From Chelativorans sp. YIM 93263 (GTDB lineage Bacteria > Pseudomonadota > Alphaproteobacteria > Rhizobiales > Rhizobiaceae): a stretch of DNA of 64,000 bases. The stretch covers positions 1 through 64,000 of the forward strand of contig NZ_JAKCWP010000011.1 in assembly GCF_028767125.1 (NCBI RefSeq). The letters run 5' to 3'. The notes under the pieces were generated by a model that saw only the letters and a list, made by a program, of their open reading frames with translations, searched no databases and was not told where the DNA came from. Made by a program: the position numbers and the translations under genes. Numbering within the stretch: the first letter of the stretch is position 1; each line of letters begins with the position of its first letter. Positions 43,119 through 50,610 of this stretch are shown piece by piece.

Positions 43119-44484
<1,366 letters not shown>

Positions 44485-44586: not shown

Positions 44587-44934
44587 TTAGCGCAGGCCCC
44601 CGGATATGAACGCGCATACGGCCTCGCTTCGCGCGATCAGGCGCTCCAGTGCCGCTGCCGATCCAGGCGATGTTTCGACCGCGGCTGCCGCGTCAGCGAG
44701 AGCGAATGCGCCGATCGCCCGACTCGCACCGACCAGGGAATGCGCCATCCGTAAACGCTCCCCTTCGGACGAGTCGGTCAGGGTTTCGCGCACGGCACGC
44801 ACCTGCTCGGCGAACAATCCAAGAACCTCCCGCTCGAGCGCGGTATCGCCTTGCGTCTGTCGCGCGAGCTGCGCGAGATCGATCGGCAGTGCGCTTTCCA
44901 CTGCTTTCAAGCCGCTGTTTACGTCGGTTGTCAT
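44587..44934 (-). CDS. Hpt-domain phosphotransfer protein
   Basis: 115-aa protein that is essentially one Hpt four-helix domain. The phospho-acceptor His is residue 65 in MAHSLVGASRAIGAFALADA, in the normal HxLxG context. No kinase or receiver gene adjoins; CckA in this window uses ChpT, a different fold, so the partner is unknown. Divergent from the GPR/RgsE-like gene with about 220 bp of shared control DNA. Confidence 0.85.
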   Translation of the reverse strand: MTTDVNSGLKAVESALPIDLAQLARQTQGDTALEREVLGLFAEQVRAVRETLTDSSEGERLRMAHSLVGASRAIGAFALADAAAAVETSPGSAAALERLIARSEAVCAFISGGLR

Positions 44935-45157
44935 GATCTTCCTCTACCCTGCCGCTTTCGCCCCGCGCTCCTCGCCGCCTGTGGACAACGCGTTAACACG
45001 GATATTCCAATTTCAGCCTTCTAACCAGCTAGACGTTAACCTTATGTTTAAACTTCTGGACATCGCGCTGCACACCTGTTTCCATGCAATGCCTGTGCCA
45101 CTACGATACGGTTAGCGAGGTGTGGGCATAATCGGGTCACGATGATCCTGTTTCGGT

Positions 45158-48100
45158 ATGGCCCCGAATGTAATGGGTGACGGCGGCATGGCGCGTAATA
45201 CAGTAAAGAAAAAAGAGCCTCAGGACGATTTTGCGAAAGAACTCGAAGAAGCCCTGATGGAGGATCCCGTCTCGAGCAGCGGCGGGGACTTGGATATTGC
45301 GGCTTCCATCGAAGACCTGGAGATTCAGATTTCAGCGGCGGCAGAGGAACTCGCCCGTGAGGGACAGGGCGAGACCTATGACACCGACGCCTCGGCCGTG
45401 CCGGATGCGTGGGCGGAAACCAGTGATGCGCCAGCTGAGTCCCACATACCGGAGACCGCGAAAAAAGCCGAAACCGCGGAGCAGAACCTTCAGCCCGTCG
45501 ACACGACATCCGAGACCTCGTTCACCTTCCCCCCGCCCGCCAATGACGACAGCCAGGGTAATCTTCATCGTTTCGCGCATACGATAGACCAGCGCGCGCC
45601 GCGCACCGCGTATTGGGTGGCAGCCGGTGTGTCTGCACTCTGGATTGCGGCTGGCCTCGGCCTTGCGCATCTACTTTACGGTCCTGAAATCTGGCAGATC
45701 AGTTCGTTGGGTGAGCTTGCGGCTGCGCCTTATGCGCTCGGTATGGCAGTCGGGATTTTCGTGCCCGTAATCCTCTTCTGGGGTTTTGCCGTTATGGTGC
45801 GCCGCGCGCAGGAAATGCGCCAGACTGCACAGCACATGGCGCAAATGGCCATTCGTCTGGCCGAGCCGGAAAATCTCGCGCAGGACCGGGTCATGACCGT
45901 TGGACAGGCGGTCCGCCGCGAGGTCCAGGCCATGGGCGACGGAATCGAGCGTACCTTGGCGCGCGCAGTCGAGTTGGAGACGCTCGTCCATACGGAAGTG
46001 AACGAGCTCGAGCGCGCCTACTCGGAAAACGCGTCCCGGATCCGCATTCTCGTGGACAGTCTTGGCGCGGAGCGTGAAGGCATCGTAAGCCATGCCGAGC
46101 GCGTGCGCGCGTCGATCACCGGTGCCCACGAGGTCCTGAAGGAAGAGCTTGATTCGGCCGGCGAGCAAATCCGCGTGAACGTGGACGACGCCGCCCAGCG
46201 GCTTTCAGGCTCGTTGAGCCAGTCCGGCGATTCACTTGCCAGGCTTCTGGACACTCGCATTGCTTCGCTCGGCGAGACCGGAGATTCATTCGTCGAGCGG
46301 ATCGACACCTCCAGTGAGAAAATCAGCCGGGCACTGGACGAGAAAGCCGAAAGCCTTTCGCAGCGAATCACCACCTCGGGTGACGGAATCGCCTCCCTCC
46401 TGGATACTCGCATTACCGCACTGACAGACCGGACTGACGAAGCGAGTCGCACGCTGACGGATGTGTTCGATGCACGGGTCTCCTACCTCACGACATCTGT
46501 CGATCAGGCATCCGAGAAGGTGAATTCCTTGTTCGAGACGCGCCTGACGCAGCTGGAACATTCCCTATCGGAGCGCGGTCAGGCACTTATTTCTGAATTC
46601 TCAACTCGTGCTGAAGCTCTCGACACCGGAATCGAGAAGCTTGAGAGCGCGCTCGAAGCCCGTGCGCGCAGCATCAATGACTCACTGGTCGAGCGCACCC
46701 GCGAAATCGCCGAAAGTTTCGTTCGCGGCCGCCAGGAAATTTCGTCGGCCATCGATCTGGGCAAGAGCACGATCGAGAACGATCTCTCCGCCCTCGTCTC
46801 CTCCACTTCCAACATACTTGAGGGCAAGGCGGACGAGTTCGCCGGCCGTCTGCGTGAGAGCCAGATCGAGCTTGGCAATCGCCTGAACGAAAACCTGGAG
46901 AACTTCGAGACCATGCAGACGCGCATGGAGAATGCCGTCGAGCGCCAGGCGGAAAGCTTCGCGCATAGCCGCGAACGCCTCTCTGGTTTTCTCGAGAACG
47001 ACATTCAAAAGCTCGAAGAAATCCATCACAAGTTCGAGGGCCGAGTCGAAGGACAGCTCGAGCAGCTGGCGCAGACGCGCAACCGCTTCGGCGAGGCAAT
47101 CGAGGCTGATATCGCGCGCCTCAACGAGGCCTTTGACGCCCAGTCCGGAGTTATCGAGGAACGCACCCGCACAATGGAGCAGGCCCTGGCCCTGGGCGTA
47201 GATAATGTGCGTCAGACGCTGGAAAACAGCGCCGGCGTCGTCGCCGGGGCCCTGCGCGACAAGGTCCTGGAGGCAACCACCTCCCTCAGCACCGAAACCG
47301 AAAAAGTTCTGGATGGCGTGGACCAACGCATTATCGGCCGGGTCGAGAACACTGCCAGGACACTTGGCGAGCAAGTGGAGTCCATCGACATCACCTTCGA
47401 AACGGCGGCACAGCGCATTGCTGAGCGCGCGGACGGCTTCCGCCAGGATTTCTCCGATATCGATCAGCGCATGGCGGCCCGGCTTACCGAAGCCTCGGAA
47501 ATGCTCAACAGCCGCGCCGAAGGTGTCGCACGGGTCTTCGAGGATGCCGACCAGCGGATCGCGGCGCGTGCGAGCCAGACATCGGCCGAGCTCGATTCAC
47601 GGACATCGGCAATTGCGGACACGCTTGCGGAGATCGAAACACGTCTGCGGTCCACCACCGAATCCAGCACCCTGGCCGTTGCCGAGCAATTGGCCGATAT
47701 CGAGAGCCGGCTGCGCTCCGGTACCGAGTTCACCACGGCGGCACTCGCCGAAAAGCTTACCGAAATCGAAGCGCAGCTGCATTCTGCCGCGCGGTCCAGC
47801 ACATCGGCGATCGTAGAAGGCGTGCAGGAAGTGGAAAAGCGTCTGGAGGCCAGTGTCGGCCAGACCCGGGCCACACTGGATCGGGGCCTGGGCGAAGCCG
47901 AGGCACGCCTCAAGACCGGCGCCGAGCAGGCGGCACAGCAGATCGGCCAACAGCTCGCCCGCAGCCAAGCGGATCTGGTGTCTACAGCCGACACGGTCGG
48001 GCAGACGTTCGCCGCCATCAACGACCATATCTCCAGGCGCACCACCGAATCCATGCAGACGGTTGAGGAGCGGACCCGCGAGTTCAACGAGGTTCTGGCC

Positions 48101-49720
48101 GGCCGCACCTCGGAGATCGGGCGCATTCTCGACGAGACCGCCCGCCCGCTCGTGGAGCGTTTCGAGGCCAGCGGCGGCGAGCTTCAGCAGAACATCGAAG
48201 CCATCACGCAACGAACCGAAGAACGCTTGCGCAAGGAAAACGCCGCGCTCATCAACGCCTTGAACAGCCGCACGAGCGAGACGATCAAGGCGGTAGAGCA
48301 GGCCCGCGAAACCGTGGCAACCGACATCAACCAGTTGCTGGTTCAACTCAACGAGTCCGGTGACAATCTGGGCCAGATGGTCGAAAGCGCTGCGGGCAAC
48401 CTGCGGCAGGTGGAAGAAAACCTCACCAAGACGACCCAATCCTTCGCCCAGAATGCGGGTAAGGCCGCGGAGACTTTCGCTAATTCTGCGAACCTCATCA
48501 ATGCGAATTCCGGCCGGCTTTCCGAATTCTCCGAGAAAACACTGCGGGAGATCTCATCGATCTCCAGCCGCTTCGAAGACCACAGCCGGCTTCTCGAAAG
48601 CGCGTCGGACCTATTGGAGAAGGCGCAGTCGAGCCTTACCGAGACGCTGGATGGGCGCCAGGAATCGCTCGAAAAGCTTGCCAATGGACTAGTGGCAAAA
48701 TCCGAGCAGATCGAGCAGGTCATGCAGTCATTCGAGGGGCTTCTAGAAGGCGCGTTCGAGACGGCGGAGGACCGCACTCGCAAGTCGGCGCATACGATTC
48801 GCGAGGCGATCAGTCAGGTCGTGGATACGGCGACCAACCGCTTTGCGGGCGCGACCGACGACATCCGTCGTAGCGCGGCGGAAATTCGCTCCGAGCTGGA
48901 GAAAACTCGAACCGACGTCACACGCGGCATCGTCGAACTGCCGGAAGAAGCTAAGCAGTCGACCAGCGCCATGCGGCACGCGATCACCGAGCAGATCAAC
49001 GCGTTGAAGGAACTCTCGGATATCGTGGCCAAGTCCGGGCGCCTGCACGACGTGGGAACCAGCATCCATCCTGCTGAACCGACCATGACCGGAGAAACCC
49101 GCCCCGCAATGGCTGTCGGCGAGACGGTTGCGCCGGCGCCGGCGGCCCCCGCTCCCAATGCCGGACAAGGGAAGCCGGTGCCCGCCGCCAACTACGCGAA
49201 TCAGCAGCCAGCGCCGGCCCGGAACAGTGCGCAGCAACCGGTGGATAAGTCTGGTTCGGTTGGGGGCCCGGCCGGCGGCGGCTGGATTCGCGACCTCCTG
49301 CGCAGTGCATCGCGCGAGGAAGGAAATGACCAGCACGAAACCCCTGGGGCCGTTGCGAACGATCGCTCCGCTCTGCACGTCGTCGAGTCGCTCAATTCGC
49401 TCTCGGTCGATATCGCTCGCGCTATTGATCACGACGCATCAATCGAGTTGTGGGAGCGTTACCGCCGCGGCGAGCGCAACGTCTTTACGCGTAGACTCTA
49501 TACGCTCAAAGGGCAGCAGACGTTCGATGAGATTGAGCGTAAATACCGGGAAGACGGCGAGTTCCGCAAAGCCGTCGATCAGTATTGTCGCGACTTCGAA
49601 AAGTTGCTTTCAGATGTTTCGAAATCCGATCGCGACAACATTATGAGCCAGACGTATCTCTCCTCTGATACCGGCAAAGTCTACACAATGCTGGCACACG
49701 CGAGCGGCAGATTAACTTAG
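45158..49720 (+). CDS. rgsE: GPR/RgsE-like growth pole ring protein (apolipoprotein-like coiled coil)
   Basis: 1520 aa. In order: a disordered acidic N-terminus (1-145), two membrane helices (about 150-174 and 192-214) that put the bulk in the cytoplasm, then about 1100 residues of continuous charged helix (to about 1310), a Pro/Ala-rich linker (about 1315-1380) and a conserved C-terminal segment (about 1405-1520, with RYRRGERNVFTRRLY and LKGQQTFDEI). The helix shows 22-residue repeats near 392-480 (units starting ALDEK, LLDTRI, VFDARV, LFETRL), the period of apolipoprotein A helices. This matches the published design of Agrobacterium GPR and S. meliloti RgsE, which form a ring at the growing pole and are needed for unipolar growth; GPR is longer (2115 aa). 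Homology is inferred from architecture. Starts at 45173 or 45188 are possible. Terminator at 49771. Confidence 0.72.
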   Translation: MAPNVMGDGGMARNTVKKKEPQDDFAKELEEALMEDPVSSSGGDLDIAASIEDLEIQISAAAEELAREGQGETYDTDASAVPDAWAETSDAPAESHIPETAKKAETAEQNLQPVDTTSETSFTFPPPANDDSQGNLHRFAHTIDQRAPRTAYWVAAGVSALWIAAGLGLAHLLYGPEIWQISSLGELAAAPYALGMAVGIFVPVILFWGFAVMVRRAQEMRQTAQHMAQMAIRLAEPENLAQDRVMTVGQAVRREVQAMGDGIERTLARAVELETLVHTEVNELERAYSENASRIRILVDSLGAEREGIVSHAERVRASITGAHEVLKEELDSAGEQIRVNVDDAAQRLSGSLSQSGDSLARLLDTRIASLGETGDSFVERIDTSSEKISRALDEKAESLSQRITTSGDGIASLLDTRITALTDRTDEASRTLTDVFDARVSYLTTSVDQASEKVNSLFETRLTQLEHSLSERGQALISEFSTRAEALDTGIEKLESALEARARSINDSLVERTREIAESFVRGRQEISSAIDLGKSTIENDLSALVSSTSNILEGKADEFAGRLRESQIELGNRLNENLENFETMQTRMENAVERQAESFAHSRERLSGFLENDIQKLEEIHHKFEGRVEGQLEQLAQTRNRFGEAIEADIARLNEAFDAQSGVIEERTRTMEQALALGVDNVRQTLENSAGVVAGALRDKVLEATTSLSTETEKVLDGVDQRIIGRVENTARTLGEQVESIDITFETAAQRIAERADGFRQDFSDIDQRMAARLTEASEMLNSRAEGVARVFEDADQRIAARASQTSAELDSRTSAIADTLAEIETRLRSTTESSTLAVAEQLADIESRLRSGTEFTTAALAEKLTEIEAQLHSAARSSTSAIVEGVQEVEKRLEASVGQTRATLDRGLGEAEARLKTGAEQAAQQIGQQLARSQADLVSTADTVGQTFAAINDHISRRTTESMQTVEERTREFNEVLAGRTSEIGRILDETARPLVERFEASGGELQQNIEAITQRTEERLRKENAALINALNSRTSETIKAVEQARETVATDINQLLVQLNESGDNLGQMVESAAGNLRQVEENLTKTTQSFAQNAGKAAETFANSANLINANSGRLSEFSEKTLREISSISSRFEDHSRLLESASDLLEKAQSSLTETLDGRQESLEKLANGLVAKSEQIEQVMQSFEGLLEGAFETAEDRTRKSAHTIREAISQVVDTATNRFAGATDDIRRSAAEIRSELEKTRTDVTRGIVELPEEAKQSTSAMRHAITEQINALKELSDIVAKSGRLHDVGTSIHPAEPTMTGETRPAMAVGETVAPAPAAPAPNAGQGKPVPAANYANQQPAPARNSAQQPVDKSGSVGGPAGGGWIRDLLRSASREEGNDQHETPGAVANDRSALHVVESLNSLSVDIARAIDHDASIELWERYRRGERNVFTRRLYTLKGQQTFDEIERKYREDGEFRKAVDQYCRDFEKLLSDVSKSDRDNIMSQTYLSSDTGKVYTMLAHASGRLT

Positions 49721-49869: not shown

Positions 49870-50610
49870 ATGGGGGACAAGATGCAGTGGGGTCATATGC
49901 TTGTCCGGCCGGACTTCCCGGACGTAATTGACACCGTCTCACGTATGCCAACCAGCGAGAGCGCCATCCTCTTCATTCGTGACACACTCGGCTTCGATCA
50001 CGTCACCTATCAACTCGCCCTTAGTCGTCCGCGCAATGCGCCCTTCATTCGCAGCAGCTACCCGGCTCAGTGGATCTCGACATATCTGCTTCGCGGCTAT
50101 GTGGACGTCGATCCGATCGTGAAAAAAGCATTCTCCTCCACCCAGCCGTTCGCGTGGCACGAGTTGAAGTTAAGCCCGAGCGAGTTGGAGTTTATGGCCG
50201 ATGCGCGGTCCCATGGTGTCGGCGACAAAGGCTATACGATTCCGATCACGGATCGTTTCTCTCGCCGCGCCGCACTCACGCTGGCAACAAGCACGACAAT
50301 CGAGGACCTGACGGCATTTATCGCCTCAAGCGCGACGAGCCTGGCCCAAATTGCCCACATTGTTCACCACAAGGCTCTGCAGGAGTTTTCGCCGGATGCA
50401 TCAGCTCAGGCGCCCGTTTTGGCGCCGCGTGAAGCGGAGTGCCTACTGTGGACCGCACGAGGCAAGGAAGCAAAAGCCATCGCAGCCATTCTCAATCTCT
50501 CAGAATATACGGTGCGCAGCTACCTGAGAACTGCACGCCAGAAGCTTGAATGCAAAACGCTTTCTCAGGCGGTCGCGAAAGCGATTCAGCGTGAAATAAT
50601 CAACCCGTAG
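49870..50610 (+). CDS. LuxR family regulator with intact acyl-homoserine-lactone site, no luxI nearby
   Basis: 246 aa: autoinducer-binding domain (about 20-170) and a C-terminal LuxR helix-turn-helix (about 180-240, [20 protein letters not shown] and [17 protein letters not shown]). The five pocket residues that define AHL receptors, W57, Y61, D70, P71 and W85 in TraR, appear here as W68, Y72, D81, P82 and W96, all shifted by exactly 11. No synthase gene lies in the window, so it is a solo on present evidence. Its last 11 bp overlap the end of glpK on the other strand. Confidence 0.9.

Follow-up and report, generated by a model that had tools for sequence, protein, structure and literature searches.

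How polar growth proceeds in the absence of MreB is little understood, and the growth pole ring protein GPR is a leading candidate for its organiser. In two published reports, GPR of A. tumefaciens (Atu1348) and its orthologue RgsE of S. meliloti (SMc00190) localise as a ring or focus to the growing pole, their depletion leads to loss of rod shape, and they make two-hybrid contacts with TolQ and RgsA and weaker ones with RgsS (PMC8262873, PMC7327166). The lengths given there are 2115 residues for GPR (PMC8262873) and 2089 for RgsE (PMC7327166).

Here, we analysed the first 64,000 nucleotides of contig NZ_JAKCWP010000011.1 of Chelativorans sp. YIM 93263 (the window). As judged from its sequence, one gene in the window very probably encodes the single GPR/RgsE orthologue of this genome, a scaffold of the growing pole with an anchor, a rod, a linker and a docking block. 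The family is already known, and by identity the window gene is an ordinary, if shorter, member of it. The gene and its parts are as follows.

45158-49720, plus strand: gpr/rgsE orthologue frame, uninterrupted, 1520 codons from the start used in the first-pass annotation
45188..49720, plus strand: gpr/rgsE orthologue of 1510 residues, start 10 codons downstream of 45158, identified by matches in both directions
45515..46207, plus strand: conserved N-terminal block (profile A3) with the membrane hairpin and the rod start, from the profile and identity to relatives
45617..45676, plus strand: membrane helix 1, residues 154-173, from hydropathy, a helix also in the structure model
45716..45808, plus strand: membrane helix 2, residues 187-217, predicted to continue into the rod, from hydropathy and the model
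45845..49057, plus strand: helical rod, residues 230-1300, with a hydrophobic period of 3.645 residues and 11/18-residue units, from periodicity analysis
49064..49273, plus strand: Pro/Ala-rich linker, residues 1303-1372, from composition
49268..49717, plus strand: C-terminal block (profile A1), all-helical in the model, from identity, profile and model

Residue numbers follow the 1520-codon frame unless marked, while windows of local phase use the 1510-residue numbering. The first-pass annotation described a protein of 1520 residues; the frame does have 1520 codons, but the protein is probably 1510 residues long with ATG 45188 as the likelier start, because in the relatives L031, L032, L035 and L036 a conserved MAR(N/K) start follows only 2-5 codons after the frame opens. 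The frame of L033 opens 39 codons before this start and leaves the choice undecided.

Several lines of evidence bear out the earlier assignment to the GPR/RgsE family, namely matching N- and C-terminal blocks, one frame per named genome and reciprocal matches. When the protein was searched back into S. meliloti 4H41, A. arsenijevicii and A. tumefaciens CNPSo 675, all 23 matches listed fell in the single GPR/RgsE frame of each of the three genomes, with 46-56% identity at the N-terminal end and 50-55% at the C-terminal end. Profile A3 included S. meliloti 4H41, so that its match to RgsE is partly by construction; profile A1 did not include this strain. The repeat regions of the window protein and RgsE align at just 28-29% identity. 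A separate GPR/RgsE gene was sought in the genome itself (G000, 99.99% complete), and searches with the whole protein (E<=10) and with the C-block profile (E<=0.01) each returned one match, so that nothing there contradicts the assignment. One candidate for a second GPR-like gene, a PF01442 stretch on G000:C4 (E 0.0012) and the only other one found in the genome, was rejected as belonging instead to a 1211-residue PodJ-like protein, whose N-terminal part is coiled and which has a single hydrophobic segment plus Sel1-like repeats; by eye, this protein (L244 187-3822, minus strand) is probably a homologue of PodJ, another polar scaffold.

The gene is widely conserved among relatives: whole-protein searches found it in 41/41 genomes of the relatives sample, own genome included, and the C-block profile in 149/151 genomes of the family sample, with a second C-block match reported in G019 and G110 that in G110 spans 18 positions. 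In G120, a miss in the family sample, the N-terminal 660 residues were found on one contig. Neither search detected a trace of gpr at E<=0.01 in G087 (2.6 Mb, 100% complete, 310 contigs), in which no true MreB was found either; the scaffold may have been lost from this genome, or its assembly may have a gap there. A scan of named genomes confirmed at least 534 stretches, of which 80 were kept.

The overall plan of the window protein is that of its described relatives. RgsE has the same end blocks, two membrane helices, an in-phase rod (period 3.654) and a linker, and the same plan was found in GPR, for which the comparison was made through the A. arsenijevicii and A. tumefaciens copies rather than C58. 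What differs is size. Named copies have 2089 (S. meliloti Ak57, the length in print for RgsE), 2094 (S. meliloti 4H41), 2115 (A. arsenijevicii, the length in print for GPR), 2120 (an A. tumefaciens MAG) and 2183 residues (A. tumefaciens CNPSo 675), and with 1510-1520 residues against 2115 for GPR and 2089 for RgsE the window protein is, as initially proposed, some 600 residues shorter. The difference lies between the end blocks, which are separated by 1021 residues here, 1617 in RgsE (about 600 more) and a median of 1723 in the named-loci copies (75/80 with both blocks). The ratio of window protein to RgsE, 1510/2089 = 0.72, is inside the +/-50% size filter described in PMC7327166.

At the N-terminus, hydropathy places hydrophobic segments at residues 154-173 and 187-217, in agreement with the two membrane helices predicted at first pass, and the block that contains them is 50% identical to Agrobacterium L094 and 54% identical to S. 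meliloti L154. An AlphaFold2 model of residues 120-400, built from the window and 29 named loci (mean pLDDT 79.1, pTM 0.34), contains a single helix at model positions 72-248, or residues 191-367, suggesting that membrane helix 2 runs into the rod. At the other end, the Pro/Ala-rich linker noted previously is 41% Pro+Ala (19% Pro) over residues 1303-1372 and, as in GPR/RgsE, places a proline-rich region before the C-terminus. The C-terminal block, rightly described as conserved, has 47-83% identity between the window gene and 16 relatives and 65-72% with 30 named Rhizobiaceae-type copies. In the best model (pLDDT 73.9, pTM 0.67), the final 150 residues of the protein come out as helical, and both structure models are of moderate confidence. 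Foldseek returned 91 matches to this fold at E<=10 and none at <=0.001 (best 0.42), and a profile comparison with solved structures gave no match below E 0.089. In L041, from a genome of 1.1 Mb, the linker region upstream of the C block contains long protein-level tandem repeats.

Between these ends lies a rod with just 3 prolines in 1071 residues (230-1300); the central helix of about 1100 residues in the first-pass annotation is thus a rod of about 1070. Residue-identity autocorrelation peaks at lag 22 (z 8.7), followed by 11 (5.7), 18 (5.1), 29 (4.8) and 51 (4.3). The 22-residue repeats seen earlier are genuine and greatly exceed chance expectation, but units of 11 and 18 residues describe them better. 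Hydrophobicity along the rod has one strong peak at a period of 3.645 residues with a power of 67.6, compared with 1.5 at 3.5, the hydrophobic period of coiled coils; in 500 shuffles, the 99.8% quantile of the maximum over the five tested periods was 7.9. The rod bears one straight hydrophobic stripe of period 3.65, not 3.5. The stripe holds its local phase within 78-167 degrees over 14 successive overlapping windows between 271 and 1095; near 1041-1205 the phase disappears, to return at about 60 degrees (all in the 1510 numbering). Rods of Rhizobiales copies have periods of 3.60-3.67 (named median 3.658), and those of non-Rhizobiales copies 3.57-3.63, mostly below the Rhizobiales values with overlapping ranges, while L203 is without a clear peak. 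At 0.15 nm per residue, the rod of the window protein would measure about 160 nm if fully extended, and that of GPR about 255 nm, taking the 1700 helical residues printed for GPR; the ring width printed for GPR is 200 nm (PMC8262873).

Rod length mostly changes in units that keep the phase of this stripe (11, 22, 29, 33 and 44 residues), whereas indels in the linker follow no such rule. Among 89 near-neighbour pairs drawn from 148 rods, we found 150 well-flanked rod indels, or 105 once merged. Exact multiples of 11 account for 48/81 merged indels of at least 4 residues, and 54/68 merged indels of 4-60 residues fit 11a+18b, as do 23% of the integers from 4 to 60. The pairs with an indel in this survey were realigned with a second aligner at four gap settings, which gave 39-43 multiples of 11 among 58-65 merged rod indels and a mean phase cosine of 0.88-0.89; in the neighbouring linker, with a flank rule looser than that of the rod (5/8 rather than 9/15 identical), only 2-3 of 16-20 indels were multiples of 11 and the phase cosine was -0.05 to 0.02. 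Short indels of 1-7 residues, 36/105 after merging, break the rule. Of the 105 unmerged inserted segments of at least 11 residues, 41 share 70% identity or more with the segment that adjoins them, so that tandem duplication is among the sources of length change. Repeat slippage, without selection for phase, could give rise to such sizes; yet indels of 29 residues, and of 18 in the window's genus, keep the phase though they are not multiples of 11.

Relatives in the window's genus align with the window protein at 46-63% identity (MAFFT), and here 9/14 well-flanked indels (18 five times, 44 three times and 58 once) are in phase within about 45 degrees at a period of 3.648. Indels of 116 (twice) and 145 residues, though multiples of 29, shift the phase by about 70-90 degrees, those of 16 and 334 residues are out of phase, and many poorly flanked gaps are irregular. 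Steps of whole helical units may be a reason for the large size variation of the rod, and the phase rule provides a reason for the tolerance of widely differing rod lengths. It also offers a cheap and sharp test of a giant rod by in-phase versus out-of-phase deletions. Of the GPR deletions put through an interference assay, one of 20 residues in domain A-IV-4 had the severest effect and was worse than loss of the whole surrounding domain (PMC8262873). We calculate that removing 20 residues turns the stripe by 164-175 degrees and removing 21 by -86 to -98 degrees, making it possible that a phase shift explains this severity. We regard this as a lead and not a demonstration, because a second 20-residue deletion, A-IV-1cc, complemented well and the abstract sizes the deleted regions at 21 residues (PMC8262873). 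We rejected phase as an explanation of the long published GPR domain deletions, because the shift computed for these hinges on the exact period; the 20-residue case alone is robust.

Beyond the Rhizobiales, Emcibacterales and Rhodospirillales are reported to have more distantly related homologues of RgsE (PMC7327166). The N-block profile matched 27/192 genomes of the class (E<=1e-3) in one place each, comprising the own genome, 2 of the same order and 24 others. From 23 of these 24 the locus was extracted, and the C block was also found in 22/23, the exception being L209; apart from L209, C-block E-values among the first 20 of these loci were 1e-46 to 1e-10. Controls made from the first 20 non-Rhizobiales proteins, 20 reversed and 200 shuffled sequences, gave no match to either profile (E<=10), and of 148 rods (E<=1e-3) one was matched by the N profile and none by the C profile. 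By profile, then, both end blocks share single proteins outside the Rhizobiales, in a minority of the sample. The N-block profile misses some family members, since a hypothetical protein of Sphingomonas parapaucimobilis (NZ_CP155749, 774 residues) has the C block (E 7.8e-24) without an N-block match; it resembles the window protein in two hydrophobic N-terminal segments and a divergent Hpt-domain neighbour, and differs in its period of 3.574 and in a record labelled plasmid. When plasmid records were searched with a Caulobacterales-type protein, the whole protein had no match and its C block matched Sinorhizobium and Shinella only.

TipN of Caulobacter crescentus is a polar coiled-coil protein. 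It is the obvious candidate for their likely counterpart among the non-Rhizobiales proteins. The holdfast protein HfaA is present in 5/20 N-block genomes outside the Rhizobiales (frames of 691-1030 codons) and, among 14 control genomes, was matched in Caulobacter vibrioides only. Each of these HfaA-positive genomes has one protein with the N block, and the four that were extracted also have the C block; they differ from the window protein in having 335-586 residues between the blocks and periods of 3.57-3.60. In the parts of the literature accessible, TipN is credited with "similarity" to GPR (PMC8546619) and the relation is elsewhere termed "analogous" (PMC13170164); our literature search found no paper treating TipN and RgsE together.

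The window species is without a true MreB, its best match scoring 60 bits in a 642-residue frame compared with 425-508 bits for genuine MreB elsewhere. True MreB was absent from 47/49 Rhizobiales genomes tested and present in 25/26 others. Among genomes tested for MreB with both blocks in one frame, the median inter-block stretch was 1155.5 residues in those without MreB (n=32, counting G299, which may be incomplete) and 536 in those with it (n=23; Mann-Whitney p 5e-6). We do not claim that loss of MreB drives rod lengthening, because the division between the two groups is almost one of taxonomy and some Rhizobiales that lack MreB have short inter-block stretches (386, 544, 547, 582 and 614 residues).

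The surroundings of the gene are also partly conserved, with three features on its upstream side.

44164..44484, minus strand: 2Fe-2S ferredoxin gene, also next in the S. meliloti and Agrobacterium loci, from locus comparison
44587..44934, minus strand: divergent Hpt-domain gene directly upstream of gpr (Pfam Hpt 25.4 bits, cut-off 24.6)
45036..45050, plus strand: CtrA-like site, TTAA-N7-TTAA with one mismatch, in the shared gpr-Hpt intergenic region

Hpt and 2Fe-2S genes flank both S. meliloti rgsE and the window gene, whereas the downstream genes differ. A profile of the Hpt gene, built from 25 Rhizobiales loci and the window, found a divergent Hpt gene within 2.5 kb in 122/128 Rhizobiales loci (those with at least 900 bases upstream, including the profile-building loci and some named/unnamed duplicates) and in 10/22 other loci; S. 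meliloti and Sphingomonas parapaucimobilis are named examples, and in the latter the usual phospho-acceptor position is, by eye, apparently not His. In the literature that we could search on the growth pole ring and histidine phosphotransfer, we did not find the gpr-Hpt gene pair described. Together, the shared end blocks and the Hpt neighbour make the relation of GPR to TipN testable.

How might such a protein work? We suggest that the hairpin would fix it in the inner membrane, that membrane helix 2 would extend straight into a cytoplasmic rod, that the in-phase stripe could let rods join side by side, or with lipid, into a ring, and that the C-terminal domain on its flexible linker may recruit the envelope-building machinery. 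Alternatively, the rod could bind lipid in the manner of an apolipoprotein and collect it at the pole instead of being a protein-protein rod, a hypothesis in print for GPR (PMC8262873). PF01442 matches the whole protein above its cut-off (123 bits versus 90) with 7 stretches, S. meliloti L154 having 10. A period near 11/3 is typical of apolipoproteins, and that of the rod is close to it. The straight stripe fits a non-heptad coiled coil equally well, sequence being unable to separate the two, and PF01442 stretches also match unrelated genomes, below cut-off in 12/14 controls (E<=0.01), so that they are weak evidence of kinship or lipid binding; we rejected the profile as evidence of kinship and hold a lipid-gathering rod to be possible at most. 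The protein might instead be a generic TipN-like landmark that marks poles and builds no growth ring in this species. Both end blocks do occur together in nearly all of the extracted non-Rhizobiales loci, and because the genomes tested there mostly have MreB, Rhizobiales-type polar growth would not be expected in them. The window species, in contrast, has no true MreB, and its C block is close to those of named Rhizobiaceae-type copies, which makes a mere landmark improbable. Finally, the window protein matches NCBIfam ZorA_1 (E 2.9e-13), and the anticipated kinesin-like labelling of such genes is seen in the public record of S. meliloti Ak57, whose 2089-residue copy is annotated "kinesin". 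That it is a ZorA-like anti-phage tail protein or a kinesin-like motor is nevertheless refuted by score and domain content: the ZorA match reaches 49 bits against a cut-off of 190 and aligns best over positions 309-509 of the 619 in the profile; a motor domain is absent from the 8 Pfam families listed; and presence in every genome of the relatives sample is unlike a defence gene.

Returning to a growing-pole scaffold, we put forward, tentatively and as a speculation more likely to need revision than not, that GPR, RgsE and TipN might be one alphaproteobacterial scaffold family with a fixed anchor and C-terminal docking domain. The rod would be an evolvable ruler that changes by 11a+18b residues because the stripe must stay in register, the polar growth zone would take its geometry from the rod length, and the protein of the divergent Hpt gene would link the scaffold to a cell-cycle phosphorelay. 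What deserves following up is the phase rule, the sharing of the end blocks outside the order and the Hpt neighbour.

The CtrA-like site upstream of gpr is also found in the genus relatives L031 and L032, and exact TTAA-N7-TTAA occurs upstream in 24/104 loci, with 0.5 expected from base shuffles. The site is not universal, as S. meliloti L154, Agrobacterium L092 and L124, and L131 are without it even with one mismatch allowed. Just downstream of gpr lies a gene for a LuxR-type regulator with an autoinducer-binding domain (49870-50610, plus strand), which is beside gpr in two genus relatives as well.
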